Positions 417-21,312 of a stretch of 33,485 nt of DNA are shown here, one piece after another (position 1 is the stretch's first letter; each line of letters starts with the position of its first letter). The notes under the pieces are model-generated. The model did no database searches. It was not told the origin of the DNA and saw only the letters and a list, made by a program, of their open reading frames with translations. This stretch comes from an uncultured Thiodictyon sp. GTDB taxonomy: Bacteria > Pseudomonadota > Gammaproteobacteria > Chromatiales > Chromatiaceae. The stretch lies in the NCBI GenBank assembly GCA_903837595.1, contig CAILVI010000250.1, forward strand, positions 1-33,485. Reading direction: 5' to 3'. Made by a program: the position numbers and the translations under genes.

Positions 417-419
417 CGC

Positions 420-706
420 GCTATTGAAGATGCCGTGCAGAGACACGCTGGAAACGACTCAGTACGCTCTTTCGGGCTGAGGTCGAGCTATTGAAAGCAG
501 CCGTGGAGAGACACGCTGGAAACTCGCGTGAGATCGCCTTATATTTGCGGGTCTGCTATTGAAAGCAGCCGTGCAGAGACACGCTGGAAACGGAGACCGA
601 TCCCACTCGACACCGAACACGCTATTGAAAGCAGCCGTGCAGAGACACGCTGGAAACAGACCGAATGCCATGATTGTTCTCCTGCGCTATTGAAAGCAGC
701 CGTGCA
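420..706 (+). CRISPR. Small CRISPR array: five 37-bp repeat units, the last truncated, four spacers
   Basis: The consensus repeat starts GCTATTGAAAGC and ends CACGCTGGAAAC (37 bp). Repeats are at 420-455 (36 bp, changed near its 5' part), 487-523 (one loop change), 555-591, 621-657 and 686-706 (only the first ~21 bp). Spacers are 456-486, 524-554, 592-620 and 658-685 (31, 31, 29 and 28 bp), short for a type III array. The repeat folds into a stem pairing CAG-CGTG with CACG-CTG around CAGAGA with one bulged C, a Cas6-type hairpin. The 3' end GGAAAC suggests + strand transcription, so the leader side is the duplicated polymerase 5' end. The last repeat decays as expected for the leader-distal end, but the first is also imperfect, which argues against recent spacer acquisition. 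Confidence 0.93.
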
Positions 707-2679: not shown

Positions 2680-2707
2680 GCTATTGAAAGCAGCCGTGCA
2701 GAGAGAC
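2680..2707 (+). repeat. Solitary CRISPR-repeat fragment upstream of the polymerase promoter
   Basis: GCTATTGAAAGCAGCCGTGC followed by AGAGA matches the first ~26 bases of the array repeat, then diverges. It shares the preceding GTTGT with the damaged repeat at 1010. It marks the left edge of the segment duplicated at 130-416 and shows that promoter and repeat were copied together. Confidence 0.8.
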
Positions 2708-2766
2708 GCCGCAGCCGCCGGCTGAAGGGCCGGCGTGGACAGCCGTGAGACCGAGACGGTTTTATG

Positions 2767-2795
2767 TTGCTTACACCGCGATAGATCCGGATAAT
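2767..2795 (+). promoter_or_regulatory. Sigma70-like promoter, copy 2 (polymerase/cas operon)
   Basis: TTGCTT (2767-2772), 17 bp, GATAAT (2790-2795). Hexamers and spacing are identical to copy 1 at 215-243. Transcription would start near 2802, inside the dyad at 2798-2822, giving a ~30-base leader before the ATG at 2831. Confidence 0.65.
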
Positions 2796-2797
2796 CC

Positions 2798-2822
2798 CCT
2801 CACCTAGCGACGGTATGTGAGG
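2798..2822 (+). promoter_or_regulatory. Dyad CCTCAC/GTGAGG over transcription start and ribosome site
   Basis: CCTCAC (2798-2803) pairs with GTGAGG (2817-2822); an overlapping alternative pairs CACCT (2801-2805) with AGGTG (2820-2824). The right arm contains the Shine-Dalgarno-like GAGGTG for the ATG at 2831. The homologous dyad upstream of the array keeps pairing by a double change (C to G and G to C). Either a repressor operator or an RNA fold masking the ribosome site fits. Confidence 0.55.
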
Positions 2823-2830
2823 TGTTCGGC

Positions 2831-5800
2831 ATGAGCGTCTCTCTATGGATTTCTTCAGCCTCGCAGTTCGGCGAGCTCGCTCCGGGCGAGTCGCGGCAGG
2901 GTGCGTTGCGCCAAGCGCTGGCGCAGGCGATCCAGCGTGAGCTGTTCGGAGATGCGGCGGCAGCGGCGGGGCCGTCTTATGACCAGGCGCTGCTCGCGTT
3001 CGCGAAGGCGCTGTCCGCGGGGTTCGTCGCGCCGGACTCAAGGCCCGCGGCTCAGAGCTTGTGGGCCGCCCTGTTTCCCGCGAACGTATTGGAGAGCTCC
3101 GCCGCCGCGTCGGAGAAAGACGAGGTACCGAAGACGGTCAGCGACGCTTTCTGCCTCGGCGTTCACGCGTTGTGCGCCGCGCTGGCGCTGCAGTGGGTCG
3201 AGTCACCGAATGGGGCTGATGACGACACGGCGGAGGACGACCGCGGGGCGGATGACGAAACCCTGACGCCGGGCTCCGCGGGCTGGCAGGCGGATTACCC
3301 GCATGTGTTAGGGGCGCTGACCGCCCTGCTGCGACAAGCCGCCTGGCACTGGCTGCGCAATGACCGCACCGACGAGACGGCCAAGGCCGAGGACCTGCGC
3401 CTGATCGCGGCCGTCCTGCTCGACACGCTGCTCGCGGTATTGGGCGACTGGTTCGCCGTTCGCACCGGCGAGACCAGGTCCCGGAACGGCCGACCCTATA
3501 CGCAAAAGTACATTGCACTGCTTCAGCCGGCGCTGGCGCAGCGCATCGAGCGCCTGCTGACCGCGCTGCCCTTCAGGTTCACCGTGCAGCCCTTGAAGCA
3601 GCCGGTCGCTTACCGGCCCGGCGACCCGGGTCCGGCGGAGGGCGACGAGCAAAATTATTTCCGCGTCGATCTGATCGGCTACCGCCGCAGCAACGCCTTT
3701 CTGCGCCGGCTCCAGGCCGACGCCACCGAGGCAGCGCAGCGCGCGCCGGAGTTCCTGCGCTATGTCGAGGCGGTGAACATCCAGCAGGCGGTACCCTGGC
3801 GGATCAACCGCGACCTGTTGCACTGGGCGCGCCGCCTGATCGCGATCGGCGGCGGCAAGGCCGAACCGGACCCCACCGCCAAGGGCGACACGGACGCCCC
3901 GGCAGAACTGCGTGCCTGGGTGCATGAAGCGTTCTACGCCCCGGTCAAGTCCGGCACGCGCGCCAAGATCGAGCGTCCCGGCGAATTCCTGGACAGTCCG
4001 CTGGCAGACCGCGTGGTCAAGGCGCTATGCCCGGCCGAACCGGACGCCGCGCCGGTGATCTTCTATCTCCCGTGGAAGGCCGATTACCGCGGGCGCATCT
4101 ATGCGGAGACACCCTGGCTGACGCCTCAGGGCGGAGACCTGCAGCGGGCGCTGTTCGAATTTCCCCGTGGCCGGGTGCTCTCCCCGGCGGGTGTATGCGC
4201 ACTGCGGCGGCATGGGGCCAATCTCGTGCGGCGCCGGCGCCTGCTGGAGGACCTGAAGATCGCCGGGCGGGAGGTGGTCACTCTGGAGGAGCGCGAGCGC
4301 TGGGTGGTGGCGCATGAGGCCGAGATCCTGGCCAGTGCCGGATCGCCGCTGACCGAGCCATTCTGGCGGCAGGTGTCCGGCAAGCCGATGCAATTCCTCG
4401 CCTTCTGTCTCGCCTATAGGCAGTGGACGCGGGACCCCGCGGCCCCAGTGCACCTGCCGGTGCAGATCGACGGCACCTGTAATGGCCTGCAGCATATCGC
4501 CGCGCTGATGGGCGATGCCGAGCTGGCGCGCGCGGTGAATGTGCTGCCAAGTGCGGATGGCCTGCCGGGGGATATCTACAGTGAGCTGGCCACGGCGGCC
4601 GGGGCGGCCCTGGGGTGCCTCCACCTGGGGCGGGGGGATGCCGTGCATCGCCGCGGACTCGAACTGGCCGACGCCTGGCTGGCCGCGTCCCCGCTGCGGC
4701 GCGCCTGGGTGAACCGCGAGACCGCGAAGAAGGTGGTGATGACCATCCCGTACGGTGCGAGCCGGGGGGCGCAAGCGCCCCATGTACTCGAGGCGATCGC
4801 GGACGCATTCGAGCAACAATGGCTGAAGGCACCACCGGCGCAGTCTGAGCTCGATGAGCTCCTGGCCTGGAAGGAGCAGGACCAGGCCCGCCGCGTCTTC
4901 GTCGCCACGAGCACCAAGGGTCTGTTCGCTGCATCGCGCAGGGCGGCCTTTCGCGGCACCGACGAGCTGGCCACGCTCTCGGCAGGCACCGAGTGGCAGC
5001 AGAAACGCACCTTTGCCGCCTATGTCGCGCTGGCGATCGTCGGGCATCTGCATGCCGTGCTCGCGGCACGCTATCCCTCGGTCAACGCATTTTCCGGTTG
5101 GCTGAAGAAGACCGCCAAAGCCGCCGCGGGCACCAAAGACTGTGCGGGGCTGCCACTGCTGTGGCAGTCTCCGCTCGGTTTCCCGGTCTGCCAGGACAAG
5201 TTCGCGCTGAAGGGAACGAGCGCCACCGCGCGTCTCGGGTCGAAGGTGGTACGGATCGACGTGCAGCGGCTGGCTGGCACCGTCGATCCGCTCAAGCAGC
5301 AGGACGCCTTGCTGCCCAACCTGATCCATAGCCTGGACGCAACCCACCTGGCAATGACCCTGCTGGACGCCCAAGCACGCGGCCTGACCGAGATCGGCAG
5401 TATCCACGACTGTCTGTTGTGCCATCCGAACGACGCCGCGGCCCTGGGCCAGGTGGTGCGGCGCAGCTTCGCCCGCCTCTATCAGCCGGGGCGGCTGGAC
5501 CTGCCCGACCCGCTGATCCGCTGGCGGGATTGGATGGCCCTGTTGGTGGAGCTGCGGGCCGTGCCCCGGCGCGGGGAGTTGCTGGCCGCGCTGAACTACC
5601 CGGGCGAGCAGGCCGAACGCGATCTCGATCACGACGCCGGGCGCGGGGACCGGGACGCCACCAGGGTCAAAGACGTGCTGGCGGCCATCCGCCGCCGTGA
5701 TCCGTCCGAGCGCTTTCTCGCGCGCATGCTGCTCGAATACGCCGTCGGCATGCCCACGCCGGAAAAGGCGCCGCTGATGCCGGAACCACCCGGTGAAGCG

Positions 5801-5848
5801 GCACTACGCCTGGGCGACGGCACCATTTCCGATTATTTTTTCTCCTGA
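2831..5848 (+). CDS. Single-subunit (T7/mitochondrial-type) DNA-directed RNA polymerase
   Basis: The 1005-residue protein should transcribe DNA as a single subunit. All core motifs of the T7 family are visible: motif T DYRGR (418-422; T7 DWRGR), motif A with catalytic Asp547 in QIDGTCNGLQH (T7 D537), motif B with Arg629, Lys633 and Tyr641-Gly642 in the same spacing as T7 R627/K631/Y639, LPNLIHSLDATHL, and motif C with His859-Asp860 in SIHDCL (T7 H811-D812). No catalytic residue is missing. It extends ~145 residues beyond Asp860, about 75 more than T7 RNAP. The N-terminal ~400 residues contain an acidic stretch near 150 and no domain I can name. I chose the ATG at 2831 because AGGTG lies six bases upstream and the duplicate at 279 has the same ATG; a GTG at 2822 is in frame but lies inside the dyad. 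The next gene starts six bases after the stop, placing it first in the cas operon. Its promoter specificity cannot be read from sequence. Confidence 0.95.
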   Translation: MSVSLWISSASQFGELAPGESRQGALRQALAQAIQRELFGDAAAAAGPSYDQALLAFAKALSAGFVAPDSRPAAQSLWAALFPANVLESSAAASEKDEVPKTVSDAFCLGVHALCAALALQWVESPNGADDDTAEDDRGADDETLTPGSAGWQADYPHVLGALTALLRQAAWHWLRNDRTDETAKAEDLRLIAAVLLDTLLAVLGDWFAVRTGETRSRNGRPYTQKYIALLQPALAQRIERLLTALPFRFTVQPLKQPVAYRPGDPGPAEGDEQNYFRVDLIGYRRSNAFLRRLQADATEAAQRAPEFLRYVEAVNIQQAVPWRINRDLLHWARRLIAIGGGKAEPDPTAKGDTDAPAELRAWVHEAFYAPVKSGTRAKIERPGEFLDSPLADRVVKALCPAEPDAAPVIFYLPWKADYRGRIYAETPWLTPQGGDLQRALFEFPRGRVLSPAGVCALRRHGANLVRRRRLLEDLKIAGREVVTLEERERWVVAHEAEILASAGSPLTEPFWRQVSGKPMQFLAFCLAYRQWTRDPAAPVHLPVQIDGTCNGLQHIAALMGDAELARAVNVLPSADGLPGDIYSELATAAGAALGCLHLGRGDAVHRRGLELADAWLAASPLRRAWVNRETAKKVVMTIPYGASRGAQAPHVLEAIADAFEQQWLKAPPAQSELDELLAWKEQDQARRVFVATSTKGLFAASRRAAFRGTDELATLSAGTEWQQKRTFAAYVALAIVGHLHAVLAARYPSVNAFSGWLKKTAKAAAGTKDCAGLPLLWQSPLGFPVCQDKFALKGTSATARLGSKVVRIDVQRLAGTVDPLKQQDALLPNLIHSLDATHLAMTLLDAQARGLTEIGSIHDCLLCHPNDAAALGQVVRRSFARLYQPGRLDLPDPLIRWRDWMALLVELRAVPRRGELLAALNYPGEQAERDLDHDAGRGDRDATRVKDVLAAIRRRDPSERFLARMLLEYAVGMPTPEKAPLMPEPPGEAALRLGDGTISDYFFS

Positions 5849-5854
5849 ACGACC

Positions 5855-7315
5855 ATGGCCAAGCACCCGACCCGCCTCGTACTCTCATTCATCGGCAAGA
5901 CCGATCTGGACTTCCTTGAGCCCCAGGGCGACAACCTCAGTCCTATCCGGCGCCTGTTGCGGGGGCTTGCCTCGCTTCAACCCCACATACCGCCGGCCCG
6001 CACGCGCCTCTTGCTGCTTGACGACGACCGTGCCGGCAGGAGTGATCGCGCCCACTTCTGCGAGGCCCTGCGTGGCCAGGTGCCGGGGCTCGGGCTGGAC
6101 GGGCTCACGGTCGAGCGCCACGCGGTCGTGCTACCCGACGGGCCGACCGATCTGAACGCGCTCTACGAACAGGTGTGGGCGGCCATCCCGATCTCTGGAC
6201 CCGAGCGGGCCGACGAGATCGTCTTTCACGTCAGTTCGGGCACCTGGGCGATGCAATCCACCTTGCTGCTCGCCGCCAACTGCCTGCGGCTGGACAAGGT
6301 GCGGCTGATCGAGACCTCGCGCGAGCAAGGTGTGCGCGAAGTGCGCCCGCCCTATGTGCTGGCGGCACGCGACCGACGGCTTAATGAGCGAACGCGTGGA
6401 ACAGTGCCGCTGTCCGACAAGGCGCGACGGACGCTGCTGCCCGATACCATCGTAGACGACCCGCCGGTGCAGGCCGCCTACGCGGCGCTCCACAAGGCGG
6501 CCAGCAACCGGAAATTACCCCAGCGGCTGGTGGTGCAGGGGCCGGCGGGCAGCGGCAAATGGCATGCCTGCCGGCAATTTGCCATCTGGCGCGGGGGCGA
6601 CGTGGCCCATTGGCTGGAGCCGGCGGCGCCCCCTGAGTTGCCGGCGGGAGCCACCCTGCTGATCCACCGTCTGGACACCTGGCCGCCGGCGGCCTTGCGT
6701 GGCCTGGCGCTGCTCGCCGCCGAGCGGCCCGATATGGCCGTTGCGGCCACGTTCCGGACCGATCGGCCGCCGGCCGTCCCGTTGGCGGTGCTGGTACGCG
6801 ATGGGCTCCGGGGGGCGGCCCACGTCGAACTCCCGGCGCTGGGCTCCCGCGCGGATGTCGTCGAGCTCGGCGAGGCCCTGGTCCGGCAATTGGGTGCGCT
6901 CGATGGCAAGGTCAAAGAGCGCCTCCAGTATGAGCTGTTGACTGATCTCTACCCCCACAATCTGCACGACCTCAAGTCGCTGCTGGCCACGACCGCCGTC
7001 CGCAGTCCGGGTGCGCACCCGCAGCGGACGGCCTATGTGCAGGCCAAACAGCTGCGGGACACGCGGGAACTGCTCGCGGAGGCGTGCCAGGTGTTGGCCG
7101 GAATGGACTTCGGACCGAACCGGCACACACTGGACAATGTATTGAAGGTGATCCGCACCGTCATCGTCCGCCGCGCGGTGGCCGAGGGACGCAGCCAGAA
7201 GGAGGTTGGCGAGTTGCTGGGCATCAGCCCGCAGACGGTCTCGGCGATTCTCAATGCACCGCTCGATCTGCGCGGCTGGAGCACGGTGGTGGAGGGGTTG
7301 GATGGGCCGCCCTGA
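5855..7315 (+). CDS. RtcR-like CARF protein with degenerate AAA+ module and C-terminal HTH
   Basis: 486 aa. Residues 1-~175 look like an RtcR-type CARF ligand-binding domain: a hydrophobic start (LVLSFIG), a LNALYEQVW segment, and HVSSGT (125-130) followed by a helix, the usual nucleotide-contact loop. An AAA+ fold follows, with GPAGSGKW at 229-236 (Lys235 kept, the usual Ser/Thr replaced by Trp) and a Walker-B-like segment TLLIHRLDTW where enhancer-binding proteins have FLDEIGEL. Only ~30 residues separate the two, so the GAFTGA loop that contacts sigma54 is absent. A helix-turn-helix (about 446-469, SQKEVGELLGISPQTVSAIL) closes the protein. It is probably a cyclic-oligonucleotide-sensing DNA-binding regulator that no longer hydrolyses ATP or activates sigma54. 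It sits six bases after the polymerase gene and overlaps cas6 by 14 bp. Confidence 0.85.
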   Translation: MAKHPTRLVLSFIGKTDLDFLEPQGDNLSPIRRLLRGLASLQPHIPPARTRLLLLDDDRAGRSDRAHFCEALRGQVPGLGLDGLTVERHAVVLPDGPTDLNALYEQVWAAIPISGPERADEIVFHVSSGTWAMQSTLLLAANCLRLDKVRLIETSREQGVREVRPPYVLAARDRRLNERTRGTVPLSDKARRTLLPDTIVDDPPVQAAYAALHKAASNRKLPQRLVVQGPAGSGKWHACRQFAIWRGGDVAHWLEPAAPPELPAGATLLIHRLDTWPPAALRGLALLAAERPDMAVAATFRTDRPPAVPLAVLVRDGLRGAAHVELPALGSRADVVELGEALVRQLGALDGKVKERLQYELLTDLYPHNLHDLKSLLATTAVRSPGAHPQRTAYVQAKQLRDTRELLAEACQVLAGMDFGPNRHTLDNVLKVIRTVIVRRAVAEGRSQKEVGELLGISPQTVSAILNAPLDLRGWSTVVEGLDGPP

Positions 7316-8204
7316 GCACATCCCCGAAGTGCGCGGGGCGCGCGATCTGGCGGCCTTGTGGCGTGACCTGCCCGCGGGGGTGCTGCGCTATCCCGCCGGC
7401 GCCTTGCCACCTGGCCTCGGACTGACGGTTCTTAGCGACACCCTGCGGTCGCGGGCCTGGCTGGAGCATTGTGCCGCTGGTGTGGATCAGATCTGCGCCA
7501 AGTCAGGCCACTCCTGCGCTCAGCCCGACGGCCGCTGCCGCGCCGATGCACTGTTTCCCGTGAATATCGGGGGAGGTGCGCTGAAATGGCGGATGGCCAC
7601 GCTCTCGGTACAGTGGCGGCCCACCCTGGGAGAACTTCGGCTCGTCGCGCTTGGAGCAACCGCCCGCCGTGCGCTCGGCTGGGCGGCGCGCTGCCTGCGT
7701 GAGCGCCATCGCCTCAATGGGGCAAGACCACTCGCCGTCGCGACGCTCGCCGACCTGGAGCTCACCGGTGCCACGCGCTGGCACTTGGCATTCGTCACCC
7801 CGTGGCTGGTGCGCAAGAACGCCCGCTCGGCGATCCTGAGTCCCGATGCCGCCGCGGTGGCGCATGAACTGTGCAAGGCCATGCGCACCCGTGCCCACAA
7901 GCTGACCGCCCTGTGCGCACAAGAGGGGGTCTGGCAGCGTTTGGGCGGGCACCTCGCCCACCATGTCGCCGATGCCTTGTTGCCGAAAGGGCTACGCGTC
8001 GAGCAAGTGGATATCGAAGCAACGCCGCTGGCGATGGGCAGCCGTGGCAACGCTTGCGTCTTCGAGTCGTTGACCTGGAGCGGCCACGCCATCCTGAGTG
8101 TGGACGCGGCCGTGCTGCCCTGGTTGAGCCTGCTTGCGACCTGCGGTGGCGGCGAGAACGCCGATAAGGGCTTTGGCGGGATCGAGTTGATCCCACTGCA
8201 ATGA
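7302..8204 (+). CDS. cas6: Cas6-family pre-crRNA endoribonuclease
   Basis: 300 aa, start ATG at 7302 inside the end of the preceding gene. The C-terminus has the Cas6/RAMP signature: SLTWSGHAIL, then a helix, then the glycine-rich loop GGGENADKGFGGIEL (about 282-296), as in the Cas6 C-terminal domain family PF10040. Four cysteines at 57, 65, 72 and 79 could bind a metal. It should cut array transcripts at the repeat hairpin, leaving a ...GGAAAC handle; the hairpin in the array repeat fits this. A catalytic residue cannot be assigned by eye. Confidence 0.8.
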   Translation: MGRPEHIPEVRGARDLAALWRDLPAGVLRYPAGALPPGLGLTVLSDTLRSRAWLEHCAAGVDQICAKSGHSCAQPDGRCRADALFPVNIGGGALKWRMATLSVQWRPTLGELRLVALGATARRALGWAARCLRERHRLNGARPLAVATLADLELTGATRWHLAFVTPWLVRKNARSAILSPDAAAVAHELCKAMRTRAHKLTALCAQEGVWQRLGGHLAHHVADALLPKGLRVEQVDIEATPLAMGSRGNACVFESLTWSGHAILSVDAAVLPWLSLLATCGGGENADKGFGGIELIPLQ

Positions 8205-8228: not shown

Positions 8229-9869
8229 ATGGCTTGGTTGTGGATCATCTCGGTCGGTGTGAGCGACGTGCAGTTTCCGGTCTGGAGCAAGGACGACTAC
8301 GGCCAGTGGATCGGTCCGCAGCGCTTCGAGGTCGGGCGGGCGGGCGTGCGCGCCGTGCATGAAGGGCTGCTGGCCCTGATGCGCCACGGGCAGGTCCGGT
8401 TCGACAATACCCTGCCCAAGGCCATCAACCGCGACCTGGCGCGTGAGCTGCGGCTCGTATTCGAGCAGGAGGGCGAGGACTTTCTGGCATCGATCCAGCA
8501 CCTCCGGCACACCCAGGACCCGGCTTACCGCATCTGCGGCCAGGCGGACACGCTACCGAACCAAGGCGAGACGCAACTGCCACTTTACTGTCCGAAGGTG
8601 GAGGCGCTGCTGCCCGTCGCACGCGAAACATTCGCCGGCAACCCAGTCACCGTCCTCGTACTGAATACCCGCCGCGCGGACGGTTTCACGGAGGCCCCGT
8701 GGGAACCCGTTGGCTCCGGTCCACTCGTGGCGAAATGCCTGGCGGAGCGGCTTGGGCTGGACTGGGTCGACGGTCAGGGCCAGGTGCCGGGGCGACTCGT
8801 GCCAGGCACCAGCACCTGGGTGGACATCCTGGCCGGTGACGAGGCGATGGAAGACAGCTCCGCGCAGGAGCAGGTGGTGAGCCGCCTGAGCGCCGCCATC
8901 CAGGCCTGGAACCCGGCCCCCGGCGCCGCCCGGCAGATCGCGGTGACCACCAGCGGCGGTATGCCGCCGCTCAAGCCGCTCATCGAGCGGGTGCCCGCCA
9001 CCTGCGTCGGTCAATCCAATGTCAGTCTGCTCGACCAGCCGGAGCGCGGGCCGGCCACGGCGGCCCCGTTGAACTACGACACCCGCGTGGCGGAACGGGA
9101 GACGCTGCGCTTTCACTGTGCCGAGGCACTGCGCAATGGCGAGTACGCGGGTGCCTATGGTTTGGCGAGCCGGGCCGCGAATCTGCCGTGGGCGAGGCAG
9201 GTCCGCGACGGGCTGGGGCCGCTGCTGGAGCTCTCGGGCACCCGCTTGACTATCAAAGGTCGCCAACTTCCACCCTTCGCCCTGACGGCCTGCCAGATCG
9301 AGGTCTTCCTGTGTATGGGAGATGTCGCCGGGGCGTTGAAACGGCTGGCTACGCTCATTGAATCGTCAACTTGGGAGCTGATCGCAGGGGACGCCCGCAT
9401 CCGTGAACTCGGATTGCAACCGGACCGCGGTTATGACTGTCTGGTGGGCGCCTTGCTCCCGGAGCACATCTTATTTACTGAGGGGCTCCTTGAACGAAAC
9501 TCCAAGGGGCGGGACCACCATCGCGTGCGTAGGTTGATGTGGAGCTGGCCTCACTGGCTCAAACAACGCGTCGGCGGACAATCAAGCGCGGCCAAAGCGC
9601 TTGACGAGATGCGGCTGGCTTACAATGGCGAGCCGCAAAGATTCAGGAATCTTCTCGTGCATGGCCCAAGTGAACTTGTCGATCTGGACGACGTTAAGCG
9701 GTGCATGAAAAATTCCGGATTGATCGATGCCGTCGACAAACCGTTCGGACAGAATTTTCTCTCCGCTACCAAGGCGTCAAGCCTGTTGACTGCTCTCGGG
9801 GAGACTGACCTGACTGCGGCCGTCTCAGGACATTTGAAGGACGTATTGAACCGGGTGATCGAGGGATAA
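8229..9869 (+). CDS. CARF-HEPN ribonuclease, Csm6/Csx1-like
   Basis: 546 aa, with GGAGG at 8216-8220 before the ATG. The N-terminal half is a CARF-type Rossmann domain: a start LWIISVGVSD and the loop TTSGGMPPLK (240-249), which should bind the cyclic oligoadenylate made by Cas10. The C-terminal part (~290-546) is helical with Arg473 to His478 (RNLLVH), the RX4H active site of HEPN RNases. It is predicted to degrade RNA nonspecifically once activated. The stop codon abuts the cas10 ATG (TAA immediately followed by ATG), implying coupled translation. Confidence 0.85.
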   Translation: MAWLWIISVGVSDVQFPVWSKDDYGQWIGPQRFEVGRAGVRAVHEGLLALMRHGQVRFDNTLPKAINRDLARELRLVFEQEGEDFLASIQHLRHTQDPAYRICGQADTLPNQGETQLPLYCPKVEALLPVARETFAGNPVTVLVLNTRRADGFTEAPWEPVGSGPLVAKCLAERLGLDWVDGQGQVPGRLVPGTSTWVDILAGDEAMEDSSAQEQVVSRLSAAIQAWNPAPGAARQIAVTTSGGMPPLKPLIERVPATCVGQSNVSLLDQPERGPATAAPLNYDTRVAERETLRFHCAEALRNGEYAGAYGLASRAANLPWARQVRDGLGPLLELSGTRLTIKGRQLPPFALTACQIEVFLCMGDVAGALKRLATLIESSTWELIAGDARIRELGLQPDRGYDCLVGALLPEHILFTEGLLERNSKGRDHHRVRRLMWSWPHWLKQRVGGQSSAAKALDEMRLAYNGEPQRFRNLLVHGPSELVDLDDVKRCMKNSGLIDAVDKPFGQNFLSATKASSLLTALGETDLTAAVSGHLKDVLNRVIEG

Positions 9870-11399
9870 ATGGCCATGGTCAAGCTCGAAATCAGTCTCA
9901 AGCGTGTGCAGACCTTCATTTTCGAGGTGCCACGACTCAGGGCCATGCTCGGCGCCAATGCCCTGATCGGGCAGACGATGCGACACGAATTACCCAAGTT
10001 GATCGGTTCAAGGGGGAAGCCTCTGGACTGGCCAGCGGGCTTGGGCGAAGAGTATCCGGATGACCCCCTGCACGCGACCGTCGATCCAGACGATCCGGCC
10101 GCACTCTATGGCAAGGGCATCCTCGCCCGCGACGGCGGGCATTTCATCGCGGTCTTCGAGAACGAGCCGGCGGCCCGGGACTTCCTGCATGCAGCGGAAG
10201 AGCAATTGGCGCAACGGCTGCCCGGTGTGCTCTACGAGGTGAGCCTCGAACGGAAAGCCGGTCCGCGGGAGACCCAGTTGATGGACCTGCCCGTATTGCA
10301 GGTCTGCCAGGAGACCGGCAGAGGGCCGGCATCGGAACAGGAAAAGGAACGCTGGCAGGCGCGCTCGGTCACGCATCGCCAGCAGTGGGGGGACAGGTTC
10401 TACGCGGGCGGCACCAAGGACATCATCGGCCTGATGCGCTCCGCCCTCTATCCGGACAAGGCCCGGCATTGGAGCGAACCGGATGACCTGGCGCAGCTCG
10501 CCGCCGGCGGCTATCTGGCGCTCATCCACGCCGACGGCAACGGCATTGGTAAGCGCTATAACGCGTGGAAGAAAAAGGCACCGAGCGACGACCCGATCGA
10601 CCAGGAGGCCCACGGCGAGGCCTTCTTCCACAGTATGCGCGTTGCCGTACGCCGGGCCGTGGTGGCCGCCCTGACCGGCACCTTCACCACGCAGAACGGG
10701 AAGCGCCCCTATGAGATCCTGATGCTTGGCGGCGACGACCTGCTGTTGCTCTGCCGGGCCAATCAGGCGCTCGAATTCGGCGAGCGCTATGCCCGCGAAC
10801 TCACCGAGTATCGACTGGCCGACGGCCCGCCCCTGAATGTAGCGATCGGCATCGCCATCGCGCAGCAGAGCTATCCGCTGCATCGGCTGCACGAATTGGC
10901 GGAGAGCCTGGCCTCCAGTGCCAAGCGGCTCTATCGGGCACTGCCCGATGCCGACAAGACCTCCGTCATCGATTGGCAGGTGGTCACCCCCTCATGGTTC
11001 GAGGGGGTCGCCGAGGCCCGTCGGCAGGGGGAGCAAGTGGCTTATACCGTCGGCGACAAGGAAGAGACCCTGCTCCTGACCGGCCGGCCCTATCGGGTCT
11101 CTGGTGCGGGCGGTCTCGAAGGTCTGAGTACCGCGGCCCGCAGACTCGACGCCCGCGAGGAAGGCAAGGCGGCACGCTCGCCACTGCGCGGTCTGCGCGG
11201 CGCCTGCGAGGGTGGCCGGCTGATGGGAGAAATGGCCTTCGCCAGACTCCCGAAAGACGTTCAAACGCAATTGGGCTGGGCCGAGGGAAAGCTCTGGGAA
11301 CCCCTTGGAGTAGGCAGCGGCGCGATGTACGCGACCCGTGCACTCGACATCATCGGTATCCGTGAGATCGCCGGCCTCGGGAGCAAGAAAAATGACTGA
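9870..11399 (+). CDS. cas10: Cas10, short form without HD domain, cyclase motif intact
   Basis: 509 aa. It opens directly with the Cas10 palm-like start (KRVQTFIFEVPRLRAMLGANAL) and has no N-terminal HD nuclease domain, as known for type III-D. Palm motifs are Asp222-Gly-Asn-Gly and Gly287-Gly-Asp-Asp290 (GGDD), so ATP-to-cyclic-oligoadenylate synthesis should be possible. The CARF proteins just upstream supply likely receptors. It overlaps the next gene by eight bases (ATG at 11392). The GGDEF-like fold could suggest a diguanylate cyclase, but neighbours and N-terminus exclude that. Confidence 0.93.
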   Translation: MAMVKLEISLKRVQTFIFEVPRLRAMLGANALIGQTMRHELPKLIGSRGKPLDWPAGLGEEYPDDPLHATVDPDDPAALYGKGILARDGGHFIAVFENEPAARDFLHAAEEQLAQRLPGVLYEVSLERKAGPRETQLMDLPVLQVCQETGRGPASEQEKERWQARSVTHRQQWGDRFYAGGTKDIIGLMRSALYPDKARHWSEPDDLAQLAAGGYLALIHADGNGIGKRYNAWKKKAPSDDPIDQEAHGEAFFHSMRVAVRRAVVAALTGTFTTQNGKRPYEILMLGGDDLLLLCRANQALEFGERYARELTEYRLADGPPLNVAIGIAIAQQSYPLHRLHELAESLASSAKRLYRALPDADKTSVIDWQVVTPSWFEGVAEARRQGEQVAYTVGDKEETLLLTGRPYRVSGAGGLEGLSTAARRLDAREEGKAARSPLRGLRGACEGGRLMGEMAFARLPKDVQTQLGWAEGKLWEPLGVGSGAMYATRALDIIGIREIAGLGSKKND

Positions 11400-13365
11400 G
11401 CTAGCCGCATCGCCACTGTTCATCCGGCTCGAGGTCGAGGCGCTCGAGGACCTGCATACCGGCACCGGCACCGGCAGCGGCGACATCGATGCGCTGGTGC
11501 AGCGTGACCGCCATGGTCGGCCAGTGATCCGTGTGAGTCACTTCAAGGGACTCCTGCGCGAGGCCGGCATGGACCTGGTCTCCTTCGGTAAGGCAACGAA
11601 AGAGGAGTTGAACCATCTGCTCGGAACGCCGGGCAGCACCCGGGGCGCCCTGCGCATGACCTCCTTGCGCGTGAGCGCAGGTGGCGCGACCTTGGTCTGG
11701 GGTTCGACCAAGCGCGTCGATGGCGGTCGCGCCCCGGAGGAGGATACGCTGCGCTTTGTCGAACACGTGGCGGCGGGTACGCGTTTCCTTGCCCAGTTGC
11801 GGCTGGCGGATGCCAGCCTCCAACCGTTGCTCGAGCGCCTGCTGAACCGCGTCGACCGCATCGGCGGTGAGCGCAACCGCGGCAGCGGGCTGGTGAAGCT
11901 CGATTGGCAGCCGATCACCATCAACCCCGGCCAGTCACTGACAAACGCCACCGGCACGCGCCTGCGCCTCGTACTGCGCAATCTGGAGCCACTGTGTCTG
12001 CCGGCCACCGGGCATCCCGGCAACCTGATCCGCAGCCACTCCTTCATCCGCGGTCAGACGCTGCGGGGGGCGCTGATCGCCTGGGCGATCCACAACGGTC
12101 GGCCGGACAGTCTGGCGCTATTCGAGCGGGTGTCGGTGGGCGATGCGTTGCCATTGCCTGAAGGCACCTCGGTGGTCGATACCGTCCTCCCTATCCCGCT
12201 GTCCATCCTGACTGAAAAGCCGCGGGCCGATGGCCCGGACATCCCCTGGTGGGCCGGCCGGTCCCCTGCCGCCCCGGAGTTCGACCGCCTCGACAAGGAG
12301 CCGATGACGGACGAAAAGCCCAAGCGTCCCGGGGCGCACGAGTATCTGTGCCGCTCCGGGGACACCGGACCCTGGTTGCGCTATAACCCGACGATGAGCG
12401 TGCGGTTGCGCAATGCGACCCCGGAGCGTGACTCGGGCAAAGATGCCAACCTGTTCAGCATGGAAGAGATCGCTGAGGACACCCGCTTCCAGGCAGAATT
12501 GCGCTTTGACGATGAGGCGACCGCCCGGGATTTCCTCGGTGCCTTCGCGCCGCTGCTCTGCGGTGGCGATTGGCTGGGGATCGGCCGGGCCGGACAGCCG
12601 GCGATCGTCGAGTCGGTTGGCGTGGTCCAGGGGCAAGACCCCGGGACCACGACCTTCACCGACGACTGGACACTCACCCTGGTGAGCGATCTGATCGTCC
12701 GCGGGGAGTCCCTGGGCTTTCTCGATGATCTCGATATCGATCGGCTGTGCGCCTTGGCCGGGGTCGAGCAACAGGCGGCCTGGGTGATTGATAAGAAGGC
12801 GGTCGAGTCGGAGGCGATTCACGGCTTCAACGCCGTCAGCGGATTGCAGCGTGCCCCGGCCCTGGCACTGCGTCGGGGCTCGTGCTGGCGCATCAAGGGA
12901 CCCGGCAGCGCGATGCTCGCCAGGTTGCTCGCCGACAAGTCGGCCCTCGGCGAACGCGTGCGCGAGGGTTGCGGGCGGTTTCTGATCGATGCGCAGCCGG
13001 TTGCGGAGATCGGCAGGCGTAAGCCACCGAAGGCCGATCCGCCCACGAACCGGAGGGAGGAACTGCTTGCAATTGCCCGCCAACTGTCAGGCAAGATCAA
13101 GACCGGGGGTCCCAGCCTGAGCCAGTTGCAATGGTTGAGGGAGCGTGCCCTGGCCGCGGAGACTGACGGTCAATTGGATGCCTTGTTGAATGAAATCACC
13201 ACCGCTCCGCAGCGCCGTCCGCAAGGGGGCAAGGCGTGGAGCGCCTTCCAACCTTTGAAGCTGAAAGAGGAGCTCGGACGGCTCAGCAATCCGGGCGAGA
13301 AGCGCCAACTGATCTCCTACCTGGTCCAATGGCGCGTCCCATTCGAGAAGGAGAATCGCGGATGA
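11392..13365 (+). CDS. Fused type III-D effector subunit, Cas7-Cas5-Cas11 architecture
   Basis: 657 aa. Residues 1-~190 form a Csm3-type Cas7: GTGTGSGDIDALVQRD with Asp31/Asp33 at the position of the target-RNA-cleaving Asp, then a glycine-rich NRGSGLV. Residues ~195-520 form a second RAMP with SHSFIRGQTLRGALIAWAI (~215-234), resembling Csx10/Cas5. The last ~110 residues are helical (SQLQWLRERALAAETDGQLDALLNEI and following) and fit a Cas11-like small subunit. This domain order equals the Cas7-Cas5-Cas11 protein of the Synechocystis III-Dv complex. No separate cas11 gene exists here, supporting the reading. The Cas5 and Cas11 assignments are structural inferences. Confidence 0.85.
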   Translation: MTELAASPLFIRLEVEALEDLHTGTGTGSGDIDALVQRDRHGRPVIRVSHFKGLLREAGMDLVSFGKATKEELNHLLGTPGSTRGALRMTSLRVSAGGATLVWGSTKRVDGGRAPEEDTLRFVEHVAAGTRFLAQLRLADASLQPLLERLLNRVDRIGGERNRGSGLVKLDWQPITINPGQSLTNATGTRLRLVLRNLEPLCLPATGHPGNLIRSHSFIRGQTLRGALIAWAIHNGRPDSLALFERVSVGDALPLPEGTSVVDTVLPIPLSILTEKPRADGPDIPWWAGRSPAAPEFDRLDKEPMTDEKPKRPGAHEYLCRSGDTGPWLRYNPTMSVRLRNATPERDSGKDANLFSMEEIAEDTRFQAELRFDDEATARDFLGAFAPLLCGGDWLGIGRAGQPAIVESVGVVQGQDPGTTTFTDDWTLTLVSDLIVRGESLGFLDDLDIDRLCALAGVEQQAAWVIDKKAVESEAIHGFNAVSGLQRAPALALRRGSCWRIKGPGSAMLARLLADKSALGERVREGCGRFLIDAQPVAEIGRRKPPKADPPTNRREELLAIARQLSGKIKTGGPSLSQLQWLRERALAAETDGQLDALLNEITTAPQRRPQGGKAWSAFQPLKLKEELGRLSNPGEKRQLISYLVQWRVPFEKENRG

Positions 13366-14684
13366 ACGGTGACTATCGGACCCTATTCGTTGGCACCTTG
13401 GTGCAGGAGTCCTTCCTGAGCGTCGGCGGCACCGATGACCCTGACACGACCGTGGACAGCCCTTTTTGCCGGAATGGCTTGGGCCGCCCGACGCTGCGCG
13501 GCACCGGCCTGGCCGGCGCCCTGATCGCGACCCTGCGCCGGTCGCTGGGGAGTCAGGTTCCCCTGACCATCTCCGGCAGCCAGGATGGTCGCCAACCATC
13601 GGTCTGGCGTTTCTTCAATAGCCATCCGGCGGCCGGGACCAGGCCGGCCTATCGGCAGCACGTCGCCATCGACTCGCGCACCGGCGCGGCGGCCACCGGT
13701 GCGCTGTTCAATGTGGAGACCCTCCCCCCCGGGACCCGCTGGCCCTTCCTGCTCGAAGTGGATACCAGGCGCGACCCGGACGCGGCGCAGCAGGCACGGG
13801 AGGCGCTTGGCCACTGGGCCGCCGGTCGCTGCCTGCTGGGCCGCGAGGTGGCGCGCGGCCTCGGCTGGATGCGGCTGGACGACCTGTATGAATATCGGCT
13901 GACTGACGCGTCTCTCGATACCTGGCCCTGCGCCAAAGCGGCCGATGATTATCCGGCCTATATCGAAAAGCATTTCTCGTCGCTGCGTGAGCGGGTCGAT
14001 GCAACGGCGGGCCAACTGCCAGGTTGGATCGAGATCACCGGCTCGGTGAGCGCCGGAGCGCACGAGGACGATTACGGCATCGACAGCCTGTCGATCGGCG
14101 GTCATGCCACCGAGGAACTGGCGGCCGCCTGGGACGAGCGTTTTCTCGCGCCCGACGGGCAGAAAGACCCGGCGGAGGCGTTCGACCCTGACTTTGCCAT
14201 CGTCACCTTTGAGCAACGAGACGCCGATCAGAAGGTCAGGCGCCTGCCCTACATCCCCGGGTCCAGCCTGCGCGGCCCGCTGCGCCATGCCCTGGAAAGA
14301 TTGCTGAGGGCACGGGGGGAGGATGACCCGCAGGTGGTCAAGACTTTGTTCGGGACCGTTGAGAAAGGCGCAAAGCTGCTGATCAGGGACGCACTTCCCG
14401 AGGAAGGTCCGGTTCAGCTTGCCTGGCTCCAGCATCACGCCGAGGACGAGTTCGCGGGCGGTGCATACGGCTCCGCCAAGTTCGACCGGGTGGCGGTAAT
14501 GCATGGGAGCTTCGCCTGGAAGATGGTGATCGAAGGCGCCGACCCCGGGGAGCGAGCGGCACTGAAGGACCTGCTCGACTTGGCCAAAGCGGGACAGATT
14601 GGCATAGGCGGCAGCCAGTGGCGCGGCCATGGCTGGCTGCGTTGGACGATCCCCGACCTCAGCTTGCTGGAGGAACTGAAATGA
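13362..14684 (+). CDS. Double Cas7 (Cas7-2x) effector subunit
   Basis: 440 aa, start ATG at 13362 overlapping the previous stop (ATGA). Two RAMP modules are in tandem. The first (1-~195) has VDSPFCRNGLGRPTLRGTGLAGAL, with Asp32 in the Csm3 catalytic position. The second (~215-440) has LPYIPGSSLRGPLRHALERLL but shows FAIVTFEQRD where the first has TVDSPF, so the cleaving Asp seems absent there. A two-Cas7 chain matches Cas7-2x of III-Dv systems. It would form backbone segments around the crRNA and cut target RNA at one site. Confidence 0.87.
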   Translation: MNGDYRTLFVGTLVQESFLSVGGTDDPDTTVDSPFCRNGLGRPTLRGTGLAGALIATLRRSLGSQVPLTISGSQDGRQPSVWRFFNSHPAAGTRPAYRQHVAIDSRTGAAATGALFNVETLPPGTRWPFLLEVDTRRDPDAAQQAREALGHWAAGRCLLGREVARGLGWMRLDDLYEYRLTDASLDTWPCAKAADDYPAYIEKHFSSLRERVDATAGQLPGWIEITGSVSAGAHEDDYGIDSLSIGGHATEELAAAWDERFLAPDGQKDPAEAFDPDFAIVTFEQRDADQKVRRLPYIPGSSLRGPLRHALERLLRARGEDDPQVVKTLFGTVEKGAKLLIRDALPEEGPVQLAWLQHHAEDEFAGGAYGSAKFDRVAVMHGSFAWKMVIEGADPGERAALKDLLDLAKAGQIGIGGSQWRGHGWLRWTIPDLSLLEELK

Positions 14685-15178
14685 CTGAGAGCCAGTGCAT
14701 ACTCGTCGTCAGCCACGGCACGGAAGAGTTCCGCGGTGTTGCCGACTTCATCAAAGAGAAGGGGCAGGAAGACACGCCGCTGCTGGCGTGGGCCGACCCG
14801 GACCCGCTTAGCGTCGACGTGACGAACGACACGGGCCGCCGCAGCGGCTTTGAGCCCTTGGTCCGCGGGATGCCGCCATGGCTCGCTGACCTGCCGCTCG
14901 CCGAGGCACGTCTGTTCTGGGCCACATCGGCGCTGCATGTCGTTGCCCGCGATGGGGGCGGCTGTGTCTGGGCGCGGATCGAAGAGCATACCGAAGGCCG
15001 CAGTGAATCCCGTGTCGCGTGCTCGAAAATGCCAGTTCATACCCTGCGCGACCTCCACCGTTTCGGCTTGGAGCACGGATCGGCCATTAAGGAATTGTTT
15101 GCCGTCGAATATCGGCAACAGGGCCGGCTCGTCGCATGGCGTCTGACCATCAAGCCACAGGAGCATACCGATGCCTAA
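14681..15178 (+). CDS. csx19: Probable Csx19 subunit
   Basis: 165 aa, ATG at 14681 overlapping the upstream stop by four bases. No catalytic motif; tryptophan-rich with LLAWADPDPLSV, ARLFWATSALHVVARDGG and WRLTIKPQEH. Size, order (between Cas7-2x and the large Cas7) and the R-F...E/A-L-H-V-type strand fit the Csx19 family of type III-D complexes. The assignment leans on context; without a profile search it could be another small III-D accessory. Confidence 0.6.
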   Translation: MTESQCILVVSHGTEEFRGVADFIKEKGQEDTPLLAWADPDPLSVDVTNDTGRRSGFEPLVRGMPPWLADLPLAEARLFWATSALHVVARDGGGCVWARIEEHTEGRSESRVACSKMPVHTLRDLHRFGLEHGSAIKELFAVEYRQQGRLVAWRLTIKPQEHTDA

Positions 15179-20367: not shown

Positions 20368-21065
20368 CGATCGCAAGCACCCCCGGGAGCGCCGCACCCC
20401 AGTGCGGCGAACCTCCCAGCCGGGATGCGCTCGCAGCAAAAAAAGCGCCCCCCAAGCCCCGCGGCTGGTACTCCCGCGGCTACCTCCCCCACTGCGACTC
20501 CTCCCAGGTCATCCAGTCGATCGCCTACCGCCTGAACGACTCACTCCCCACCCAAGTCCTGGAGCGCATGCAAGCCGACATCCGCCGCGAGATCACCGAT
20601 CCCAAGACCCGTGACAGCGCAGTGCGCCGGCTGATCGAGGACTATCTCGACGCCGGCCACGGTTCCTGCATCCTGCGCGAACCAGCGGTGGCCGAATGCA
20701 TCCTCGACACCTGGCTGCACTTCGACGGCACCCGCTACCGCCTGTTGGAATGGGTGGTAATGCCCAATCACTGCCTTGTACTCATCGAATCCCTGCCGGG
20801 GATCGCCTTGGCGACCATCGTCTTGTCCTGGAAGAATTTCACGGCGCGGTTCATCAACCGCTTGCGCAGTCCCAGCGGGGCGGGCACAGCGGTCCATGGG
20901 CGGGTCTGGGAGCGCGACTATTGGGACCGCTACATCCGCAATGACCAACACCTGGCCGCGGCGCGGCATTACATCCGGATGAATCCGGTGAAGGCGGGGT
21001 TGGTCAAGACACCGGAGGACTGGCCCTGGGGAAGTGCCGGAATGGGCTTCACCGGCGAACCTTAG
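20364..21065 (+). CDS. RAYT (REP-associated tyrosine transposase, Y1 superfamily)
   Basis: 233 aa. RAYT features are RGWYSRGYLPH, RLNDSLP, VVMPNHCLVLIE (131-141), ERDYWDRYIRN and HYIRMNPVKAGL. RAYTs cut and join single-stranded REP DNA using an HxH metal site and a tyrosine. Here the expected HxH reads His136-Cys-Leu138, so the second His is missing. Tyr203 is a candidate nucleophile. Residues ~8-16 are encoded by a REP sequence (20383-20407), so the true start may lie further in, although no in-frame ATG is near. Copies of the same REP follow the stop directly. Confidence 0.85.
   Translation: MTIASTPGSAAPQCGEPPSRDALAAKKAPPKPRGWYSRGYLPHCDSSQVIQSIAYRLNDSLPTQVLERMQADIRREITDPKTRDSAVRRLIEDYLDAGHGSCILREPAVAECILDTWLHFDGTRYRLLEWVVMPNHCLVLIESLPGIALATIVLSWKNFTARFINRLRSPSGAGTAVHGRVWERDYWDRYIRNDQHLAAARHYIRMNPVKAGLVKTPEDWPWGSAGMGFTGEP
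20383..20407 (+). repeat. REP element inside the 5' end of the RAYT gene
   Basis: This 25-bp REP begins CCGGGAGCGCCG and ends CAGTGCGG. It has the same orientation as the copy just after the gene at 21066. Confidence 0.8.
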
Positions 21066-21239
21066 CCGGGAGCGCCGCACCGCAGTGCGGCCCGCCCTAT
21101 CGACAACACGTAACCCCGCGGTCGTGTGCGAGGCTTCGCCGCACTGAGGTGCTGCGCTCCCAGTGCAGCCAGTGCCGCACGGGTCATCGAACGTTGCGAT
21201 GGCTGATGGGGCGGCCGCACTGGGGTGCGGCGCTCCCGG
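21066..21239. repeat. REP cluster downstream of the RAYT gene
   Basis: There is one forward REP at 21066-21090 directly after the stop codon and two inverted ones at 21139-21163 and 21215-21239, all of the GGGAGCGCCGCACC family. The remaining ~75 bp to the Maf gene hold nothing recognisable. Confidence 0.85.
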
Positions 21240-21312
21240 GGCGGCGGCAGGTGCCGCGGCGGCGCGAACGGCTTAGGATAGGCGGCCGACCCCGAACCAA
21301 TGCGCGACCGCC

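Follow-up and report, generated by a model that had tools for sequence, protein, structure and literature searches.

To our knowledge, the CRISPR systems described so far depend on the multisubunit RNA polymerase (RNAP) of the host, an enzyme that many phages turn off or divert. Type III signals that act on transcription are known from the CalpL/CalpT/CalpS system, in which a sigma factor is released by cA4 (PMC11229360), and from Csa3, a CARF-wHTH protein (abstract of PMC8699464). According to PMC11229360, many ancillary type III proteins are effectors activated by second messengers, and a passage of PMC7515739 holds the suggestion that a phage single-subunit RNAP may outrun co-transcriptional type III targeting, which adds a point to the pairing of such an enzyme with a type III system. 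In the paper listings and passages searched, no description of a single-subunit RNAP within a CRISPR locus was found; the passages of PMC12669027, PMC11229360, PMC4012209, PMC3710099, PMC5513706, PMC7515739 and PMC9650030 contain none.

The window, i.e., the whole stretch of 33,485 nucleotides analysed here, from an uncultured Thiodictyon sp., carries a nine-gene operon that ends at position 17471 and has the gene for a single-subunit RNAP in first place (Table 1). Judged by its sequence, the locus is a type III-D CRISPR-Cas locus, with a Cas10 bearing the cyclase motif, Csx10, Csx19, a TIGR03986 RAMP protein and a linked array. As in other type III-D systems, Cas10 has GGDD (at residue 287) and lacks the HD dipeptide, and it is accompanied by Csx10, Csx19 and several Cas7 proteins. 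The Csx10-like protein scores 51 bits against TIGR02674, under the curated cut-off of 177; the Cas6-like protein is 66-72% conserved at the other loci, and the CARF-HEPN protein contains RNLLVH, located by a search for the R-x4-6-H motif. The preliminary description had placed a polymerase gene six bases from, and on the same strand as, the next gene of a CRISPR-linked chain, free of surrounding phage structural or replication genes. This was borne out: the gene ends at 5848, six bases before the next ORF (5855-7315), eight further operon genes were identified, and a Pfam scan of the 20 window ORFs revealed no gene for phage structure or replication.

Table 1. Features of the window, with positions counted from its first nucleotide.
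Feature	Positions	Strand	Basis
Copy of RNAP upstream region and first ~31 RNAP codons	176..371	+	repeat search; translated match 279-371, 77%
Small CRISPR array, four repeats and truncated fifth	419..705	+	repeat search
Degenerate CRISPR repeat shortly before the RNAP gene	2680..2710	+	repeat search; position as at the array end of related loci
Upstream element of RNAP	2767..2822	+	weak sigma70-like TTGCTT-17-GATAAT (2767-2795) and dyad CCTCAC-N13-GTGAGG (2798-2822), read by eye
Single-subunit (T7-type) DNA-directed RNA polymerase	2831..5848	+	1005 aa; PF00940; intact catalytic residues
CARF-AAA-HTH regulator	5855..7315	+	PADLOC RtcR_PspF2 CARF_AAA_HTH 7.1e-17
Cas6-like RAMP endoribonuclease	7314..8204	+	weak: Pfam Cas6 0.016, PADLOC Cas6 9.9e-4; exact start uncertain
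CARF-HEPN ribonuclease effector (CARF_m10 type)	8229..9869	+	PADLOC 7.8e-101
Cas10	9870..11399	+	Pfam 2.8e-9, PADLOC 5.8e-79
Csx10-like Cas7/Cas5 protein (III-D)	11392..13365	+	TIGR02674 1.1e-13; PADLOC Cas5_IIId 4e-17
Double Cas7 (Csx7/Csm3-like) protein	13356..14684	+	RAMPs 1.2e-25, PADLOC Cas7_IIId 5e-37; exact start uncertain
Csx19	14681..15178	+	PADLOC 1.1e-57
Cold-shock domain and TIGR03986 RAMP protein	15171..17471	+	TIGR03986 244.6 bits (cut-off 161.35); CSD 9.6e-12

The RNAP ORF starts with the ATG at 2831 or, alternatively, with a GTG at 2822. Its product matches PF00940 (RNA_pol) with E=2.6e-58 and 198 bits, the cut-off being 22. The residues listed in the preliminary description, Asp547, Lys633, Tyr641, His859 and Asp860, are all present and are aligned with Asp537, Lys631, Tyr639, His811 and Asp812 of T7 RNAP, and Arg629 with T7 Arg627; we take T7 D537, R627, K631, Y639 and H811-D812 to be the defining catalytic set of this enzyme type. 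The C-terminus reads YFFS, compared with FAFA in T7. Every one of the 16 PDB sequence matches is named RNA polymerase, the mitochondrial ones ranking first. In the AF2 model (pLDDT 75, pTM 0.77) the best folds are those of yeast mitochondrial RNAP (7.8e-26) and T7 RNAP (4.4e-24), with TM-scores of only ~0.5 and the domain placement unsure. By domain, catalytic residues and fold the enzyme is thus a single-subunit RNAP of the T7/mitochondrial type, and promoter-specific RNA synthesis is its predicted activity. The Pfam, TIGR and PADLOC profiles revealed neither a CARF nor any other sensor domain in it.

The order with RNAP first is found in four complete loci from two families: the window, Thiorhodococcus drewsii AZ1, and the genomes G164 and G277. 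All four have RNAP, CARF-AAA-HTH, Cas6, CARF-HEPN, Cas10, Csx10 and Csx7 in this order, which continues with Csx19 and the RAMP protein in T. drewsii and G164; the G277 stretch stops inside Csx7, and the G164 operon has two additional genes between Cas10 and Csx10. On a short contig of G714, which belongs to another class, a truncated RNAP adjoins the same CARF-AAA-HTH gene, so that the linked RNAP is retained in at least five genomes of three families. A chance event in one genome or an assembly artefact is ruled out by the four complete loci and the fifth, partial one. The searches amounted to 1985 genome look-ups, repeats included; the order-level search took in the same 210 genomes as the family-level search, and a scan of genome contigs yielded, among the matches listed, T. 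drewsii and a distant Omnitrophota locus. With nine other window proteins as queries, other operon components were found beside RNAP at five of 97 RNAP loci, the five linked ones, and at none of 12 further stretches, including a longer one from G028. These five RNAPs form one clade with a long stem (SH-aLRT 100) in a quick tree, from which 16 of the 97 rows (<650 aa) were left out and in which G714 was kept though short, its row half-filled; no mitochondrial sequence was included. The active-site residues are kept in all four complete RNAPs, as is the specificity-loop pattern (T/S)S(V/A)(T/S)AR(L/I)G, for which the G714 enzyme has a different reading. The dN/dS values of the complete copies (0.27, 0.46 and 0.35) indicate purifying selection.

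That the operon merely picked up a phage gene by accident is, in our view, very improbable. More distant RNAP homologues, of about 23-39% identity, do occur in phages, within stretches resembling prophages, in the vicinity of a DUF927 gene in G028 and in unlinked stretches, and three divergent ones, in contrast to that of the window, have genes of the primase/helicase, DNA polymerase or gp2.5-like kinds nearby; an initial viral scan with one sequence returned no relative. Such a passenger is contradicted by the same neighbour gene in five genomes of three families, by the clade, and, in the complete copies, by the preserved active site and a dN/dS far from 1. A prophage or plasmid RNAP was likewise rejected: no phage or plasmid genes were identified at its flanks, and the enzyme does not group with phage RNAPs in the tree. 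The preliminary description had assigned the gene to a type III-D operon, an assignment that prophage or plasmid homologues away from cas genes would have spoken against. The assignment is supported: wherever a complete locus was found, the near homologue heads this operon, and only distant ones are phage, prophage-like or unlinked.

The repeat core was present in four of 40 genomes tested, exactly the four with a linked RNAP, and the GGDD of Cas10 and the CARF motif SGTxAM are kept. No RNAP match was found in G024, whose Cas10 is a close relative, on a 3.5 kb contig of an 84% complete MAG; there CARF-HEPN was matched over its first 48 residues only, with a methyltransferase-like ORF upstream. 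The stretches searched at more distant III-D loci of the same family (G007, G215 and G233) gave neither RNAP nor CARF-AAA-HTH matches. Taken together, the comparisons show a separate variant of type III-D CRISPR-Cas of which the RNAP is almost certainly a genuine and conserved part.

The partner encoded next to the RNAP is RtcR-like in layout but, on its motifs, is without the sigma54-contact motif and the Walker B Asp-Glu pair. The PADLOC RtcR_PspF2 match spans residues 7-238, and the HTH lies near residues 434-468, with matches at or below Pfam cut-offs; Sigma70_r4 is matched at 1.9e-4, under the cut-off, and a sigma factor structure at 0.024. GAFTGA, the motif that contacts sigma54, occurs in none of the five RNAP-linked proteins, compared with all eight ordinary relatives examined. 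The Walker B Asp-Glu pair, which serves ATP hydrolysis, is missing in the same five (RLDxW, WLDxW or RIDxW), compared with GTLFLDE in all eight relatives, and the Walker A-to-B spacing is 37-51 residues as against 66, i.e., the AAA domain is shorter. The ordinary relatives were eight of the 23 weaker matches listed; a ninth fetched locus, L231, with a frame of 250 aa, was left out. Matches above 900 bits were confined to three RNAP-positive genomes among 204 of the family, the next best reaching 40 bits, and no relatives appeared in the viral scan or the plasmid search. The model of the protein has a pLDDT of 50, and a fold search with its CARF part matched Csx1-Crn2, Csm6 and Csa3 structures at low confidence; the protein probably senses cyclic oligoadenylate.

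That the RNAP is a dedicated polymerase for its own array and/or cas operon, with the CARF-AAA-HTH protein as a private, probably cyclic-oligoadenylate-gated factor, is a reading of these sequences to which we give an even chance. The exclusive pairing of RNAP and regulator in the genomes searched, the shared gene order, the single clade and the intact residues count for it; the leader motif not found upstream of the window RNAP, the leader dyad without RNAP in G119 and the sigma70-like promoter on contig C522 (both described below), G024, the odd loop of G714 and the evolutionary rate of RNAP, somewhat higher than that of Cas10, count against it. A more specific form is put forward only tentatively: a former sigma54 activator, bound to the messenger, may switch on the RNAP, which would transcribe array and operon alike and so form a positive feedback loop immune to phage attack on the host RNAP. 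In the broader reading with the even chance, basal transcription would supply crRNA and Cas proteins; phage RNA would trigger Cas10 to form cyclic oligoadenylate, and this messenger would bind the CARF domain. The HTH protein, devoid of the sigma54-contact motif, would then load or license the single-subunit RNAP at CRISPR-locus DNA, and CRISPR output would be boosted and persist even when the multisubunit enzyme of the host has been turned off or taken over by a phage. In this scheme the RNAP's activity in transcription, its promoter, the messenger and the contact between RNAP and regulator are inferred.

The RNAP gene is closely preceded by CRISPR repeats at the three remaining complete loci, two in T. 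drewsii, about 25 in G164 and 37 in G277, with 131, 154 and 56 bp, respectively, from the array end to the RNAP start (20 bp to an upstream in-frame ATG in G277). The preliminary description had suggested that the enzyme could transcribe the array or target-related DNA, or drive a defence regulon; the placement of the RNAP leans towards transcription of the array and/or its own operon rather than of a wide regulon. No sigma70-like promoter was reported by a scan between array end and RNAP at these three loci, which fits co-transcription of RNAP with the array. In the window, nucleotides 176-365 are an 89% copy of 2728-2917, so that a truncated RNAP start and its upstream region are placed before the small array; by eye, the dyad is retained in the copy through a compensating change (CCTGAC...GTCAGG). 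Neither this copy nor the repeats upstream of RNAP at the other loci had been noted in the preliminary description. The TTGCTT-17-GATAAT element was rejected as a sigma70 promoter of the window RNAP, being weak (a hand count gives 8 of 12 matches) and absent from the promoter-scan output. The repeat core of the small array recurs on contig C522 of the window genome (G000), where a sigma70-like TTGGCA-18-TAGCAT (9 of 12 matches, 0.1 expected) lies at 13104-13133 of the array strand, upstream of the main array, which host RNAP may therefore transcribe.

It is also conceivable, though unlikely, that the RNAP transcribes the array and the cas operon constitutively, with long read-through and independently of host RNAP, and that the CARF-AAA-HTH protein separately regulates host-RNAP promoters. 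The position of RNAP directly past the array end at three loci, the resemblance of the HTH to sigma70 region 4 and the sigma70-like elements upstream of the C522 array and of the window RNAP (the latter weak and read by eye) would suit such an arrangement, which does not explain why the RNAP and regulator genes occur together and side by side in all five genomes.

No promoter of the RNAP itself was identified; a conserved leader dyad is no more than a candidate. In five leaders from the four RNAP-linked genomes the leader element, a box and a dyad ACC-N8-GGT, precedes the first repeat by 95-98 bases. The pattern TTTYACCRRAAATYCGGTAA was written from the T. drewsii, G164 and G277 leaders, whose exact matches are thus by construction; the independent cases are the G000 leader (two mismatches) and the second G105 leader. 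Matches with two mismatches occur in five of 36 genomes without linked RNAP (G018, G042, G050, G052 and G100), and the reversed control gave three matches in two genomes. Motif weights were built from seven instances, whose own scores are not independent; shuffled controls gave 0-1 matches above 15 bits, and a scan with these weights did not find the motif upstream of the window RNAP. Some copies are located 3' of cas1 with no repeats beside them, and G119, with no RNAP match, has two leader-box copies with a dyad of different centre near a Cas1 fragment. Since it occurs also without RNAP, TTTYACCRRAAATYCGGTAA was not accepted as the RNAP promoter and is treated as a candidate, either promoter or operator; dyads are more characteristic of sites bound by dimeric proteins than of T7-type promoters.

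The C522 array of G000 and the second G105 array, which share the repeat core and the leader, are adjoined by genes for a reverse transcriptase (RVT_1 3e-29), Cas1 and Cas2, and a Cas1 ORF adjoins the array in G164 and G277 (read by eye in the latter). The RNAP could accordingly work with the reverse transcriptase of an RT-Cas2-Cas1 module, making or copying RNA for spacer acquisition, which we consider decidedly improbable: the RNAP belongs to the effector operon and not to the adaptation module, in G000 and G105 this module is found on a different contig or at a distance of 23-29 kb, and tblastn found no relative of the C522 reverse transcriptase in the G164 and G277 stretches searched. A role as an effector is improbable as well, if not to that degree. 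A CARF-released RNAP would transcribe host or phage DNA unrestrained, leading to growth arrest or to more target RNA for Cas10, i.e., to abortive infection, in keeping with the operon adjacency and with the second-messenger-activated ancillary proteins common in type III loci (PMC11229360). The operon already has a CARF-HEPN ribonuclease effector, however, and the RNAP, in which no sensor domain was found, is the array-adjoining gene.

If the dedicated-polymerase reading is correct, a conserved, catalytically intact single-subunit RNAP leading a type III operon would sidestep the weakness that phages exploit when they attack the host enzyme, and the analysis suggests that CRISPR defences carrying an RNAP may run on private transcription machinery without need of the cell's own enzyme. 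We know of no earlier single-subunit RNAP whose fixed role lies in an immune operon of bacteria and not in a phage or an organelle. The regulator has the look of a sigma54 activator cut loose from sigma54 and may show an activator switching to an unrelated polymerase. T. drewsii AZ1 is a named, sequenced bacterium carrying the system, which might yield a ligand-controlled T7-like transcription tool.

The window RNAP has the fold, the catalytic Asp/Arg/Lys/Tyr/His-Asp and the C-terminal foot of the T7-type enzymes of Autographiviridae phages and mitochondria. Unlike these, the CRISPR-linked RNAPs are encoded in CRISPR operons with no phage genes identified around them, and they form a separate clade outside the phage enzymes sampled, in a tree from which mitochondrial sequences are absent. 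RtcR, with CARF, sigma54-activating AAA+ and HTH parts, has the same layout as the window partner and matches it in sequence, but the five partners of this type lack GAFTGA and the Walker B Asp-Glu and have a shorter AAA domain. CalpL acts via a sigma factor and Csa3 is a DNA-binding factor, whereas the window system encodes a whole polymerase. Compared with known type III-D systems, its operon has an extra single-subunit RNAP and a CARF-AAA-HTH protein.

The open frame of 1005 residues at the head of the operon encodes a single-subunit RNA polymerase (RNAP). Pfam recognizes one domain in it, RNA_pol (PF00940, 2.6e-58), and a PDB sequence search with the protein returned 16 distinct sequences, every one named RNA polymerase (mitochondrial, T7 or unspecified). 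The residues said to be intact in the preliminary description, Asp547, Lys633, Tyr641, His859 and Asp860, are present at these positions and align with T7 Asp537, Lys631, Tyr639, His811 and Asp812. The top fold matches of its AlphaFold2 model (pLDDT 75, alignment of 34 sequences) are the yeast mitochondrial and T7 RNAPs. PF00940 has a single match in the window's genome, and a protein search of that genome found, besides the gene itself, only a 31-codon copy of its start. An 89% duplicate, covering the RNAP upstream region and approximately the first 31 codons, is placed before the small CRISPR array; it may be a duplication with a regulatory role or the remnant of a rearrangement. By eye, the dyad arms upstream of the RNAP gene co-vary, being CCTCAC/GTGAGG there and CCTGAC/GTCAGG in the duplicate.

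Features of the window and of related contigs
Feature	Location	Remark
RNAP gene	2831-5848 (+)
31-codon copy of RNAP start	279-371
Duplicated RNAP start region	176-365 / 2728-2917
Small CRISPR array	419-705
ORF 2035	2035-2655	206 aa, between array and RNAP gene
Short repeated segments	1620-1960	GGAATGGTAC-like, upstream of ORF 2035
26-bp inverted repeat	1665-1690/1836-1861	inside the segment run
GTCTTGGAATGG, also upstream of T. drewsii RNAP	L006, about 9980	by eye
REP-like palindromes (GCCGCACCCCAGTGCGGC)	767-865, 1075, 20377, 21060-21252	near array and around transposase gene
Y1/REP-type transposase gene	20094-21065
21-bp tandem repeat	23956-24342	in-frame, Lys/Ala-rich heptads, in LysM-bearing lytic transglycosylase gene
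Second T. drewsii array, RT-Cas2-Cas1	L142, C136:140000-152000	23-29 kb downstream of RNAP gene
Leader element 3' of cas1, G277	joined 14741 (L098)	strong, 30 bases past cas1 ORF low end
Leader element 3' of cas1, T. drewsii (G105)	L142:4355	strong, 54 bases past cas1 ORF low end
Leader element 3' of cas1, window's genome (G000)	L140:10903	weak, 34 bases past cas1 ORF low end
Leader element 3' of cas1, G164	joined 9822 (L092)	weak, 6 bases past cas1 ORF low end
Sigma70-like site, contig C522 of window's genome	L140 13104-13133	array strand, upstream of array leader

The RNAP gene does head a chain of CRISPR-linked genes, as described earlier: eight genes follow on the same strand, the first of them six bases downstream and all overlapping or tightly spaced, in the order CARF-AAA-HTH, Cas6-like, CARF-HEPN, Cas10, Csx10, double Cas7, Csx19, and cold-shock plus TIGR03986 RAMP. 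By sequence, these eight are the effector set of a type III-D system, even though Cas6 is matched weakly and the Csx10 model scores under its curated cut-off; Cas10 has GGDD and lacks HD. That the RNAP itself acts as an effector seems quite unlikely. For ORF 2035, no family model matched above its cut-off, and tblastn gave no counterpart at the three other complete loci.

Searching genome contigs revealed at least two RNAP relatives, including a full-length one in Thiorhodococcus drewsii AZ1. Within the family, RNAP matches were found in 4 of 210 genomes (the window's own, T. drewsii, G164 and, with a divergent match, G028), in the class sample in 2 of 369 (the window's own and G277), and in the phylum sample in 6 of 398 (the window's own, half a gene in G714, a genome of another class, and four divergent ones). 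The gene order in T. drewsii, G164 and G277 is identical to that of the window, with collinear tblastn positions and identities of 49-66% for RNAP, 56-76% for CARF-AAA-HTH, 66-72% for Cas6, 51-65% for CARF-HEPN, 63-66% for Cas10 and 62-71% for Csx10; the G277 stretch compared stops within Csx7, and in G164 Cas10 and Csx10 are separated by two additional genes, interpreted as an IS607-like pair. The 3 kb contig of G714 carries the 3' half of the RNAP gene (49%) followed by CARF-AAA-HTH (47%). The dN/dS of the linked RNAPs, 0.27-0.46 versus 0.20-0.22 for Cas10, points to purifying selection somewhat looser than that on Cas10.

RNAP relatives were also counted beside cas genes, as the preliminary description had proposed, with nine other window proteins (the eight operon partners and ORF 2035) as control queries. 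The 97 RNAP-bearing loci comprised 81 from collection scans (L007-L087, median length 12.4 kb), ten others (L181-L190) and six including the window's own. Operon partners were matched at only five, those of the window, T. drewsii, G164, G277 and G714; the absence of a match carries little weight at the shorter loci, which go down to 3.5 kb. No partner was matched in a further twelve stretches, one of which spans 20 kb around the G028 gene. The divergent RNAPs of G817, G938 and G754 lie near primase/helicase, DNA polymerase or gp2.5-like genes, and that of G028 near a DUF927 gene and an H-NS-like gene; the G644 copy is broken into two frames and has neighbours without an informative match. A tree of 81 RNAPs groups the five linked ones in a single clade (SH-aLRT 100) on a long stem, with G028 as its next relative, and viral scans with the RNAP found nothing nearer than 36% over the best segment. 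The RNAP is almost certainly a component of this III-D variant; that it is a passenger gene, the alternative on which these counts bear, is highly improbable.

Cas10 was matched in 20 of 210 genomes, with more than 900 bits in four, three of which have the RNAP. The exception, G024 (84% complete), gave no RNAP match; its contig C80 (L175, 3.5 kb) carries the close Cas10 relative, a CARF-HEPN matched over its first 48 residues only and, upstream of the latter, a DNA cytosine methyltransferase-like ORF. The next Cas10 relatives (about 350 bits) belong to III-D loci of G007, G215 and G233; the stretches searched there gave no match to RNAP or CARF-AAA-HTH. Within III-D, a single lineage seems to have gained the RNAP.

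Of 40 genomes searched for the repeat core, only the four with the linked RNAP have it. On the array's strand, the last repeat precedes the RNAP start by 56 (or 20) bp in G277, 131 bp in T. drewsii and 154 bp in G164, and a promoter scan of these three stretches found no sigma70-like promoter; array and operon may form one transcription unit. In the window the two are separated, and a weak sigma70-like element was seen by eye upstream of the RNAP gene. The four complete RNAPs resemble one another in the specificity loop and differ there from T7, G028 and G714, which suggests that the four share a promoter. That the RNAP, partnered by the CARF protein, is dedicated to transcription of the CRISPR locus stands at about even chances, and ungated insulation is unlikely. 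Against a dedicated array polymerase counts the sigma70-like site on contig C522 (9/12 matches, 0.1 expected), which precedes the larger array of the window's genome (17 exact repeat-core matches, reaching the contig end).

The window's genome, T. drewsii, G164 and G277 share a leader element made up of the box TCACCTTGTCAC, an A-run and TTTCACCAGAAATNCGGTAA and situated 95-98 bases ahead of the first repeat; by eye, the box is weaker in G164 and in the first T. drewsii leader. The dyad ACC-N8-GGT is present in all nine listed copies, two of which, with a different centre, come from the RNAP-less G119. Because copies also occur at cas1 and in G119, the element belongs to the leader or the adaptation module in general; it is not claimed as an RNAP promoter and may be an operator. 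The copies at the cas1 end point back across the adaptation genes.

RT, Cas2 and Cas1 genes adjoin both the C522 array and the second T. drewsii array, which has the same repeat core; a search of the G164 and G277 stretches gave no relative of the C522 RT. Given these genes beside their arrays, two of the four systems may take spacers from RNA. The same adjacency favours a role in adaptation with RT and RNAP acting jointly, which is nevertheless distinctly improbable.

A literature search returned no description of a single-subunit RNAP as a CRISPR-locus component, and the words 'RNA polymerase' are absent from the available main text of the 2025 classification and the 2024 type III survey. 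The CARF-AAA-HTH partner matches models of the RtcR type, the match spanning CARF and the beginning of the AAA domain. CARF-AAA-HTH matches were found in 21 of 204 family genomes, exceeding 900 bits only in the three with the RNAP (next best, 40 bits). According to PMC9650030, ordinary RtcR acts via the sigma54 holoenzyme. Eight of the 23 weaker matches were compared as ordinary relatives: all eight keep GAFTGA, a Walker B of LDE and a Walker A-to-Walker B spacing of 66 residues, whereas all five linked proteins lack GAFTGA and have RLDxW or similar as Walker B, with a spacing of 37-51 residues. The CARF motif SGTxAM and the P-loop GxxGxGKW are retained. From this motif loss and the co-occurrence, CARF-AAA-HTH appears to be a former sigma54 activator that has lost its sigma54 contact and is now tied to a single-subunit RNAP.
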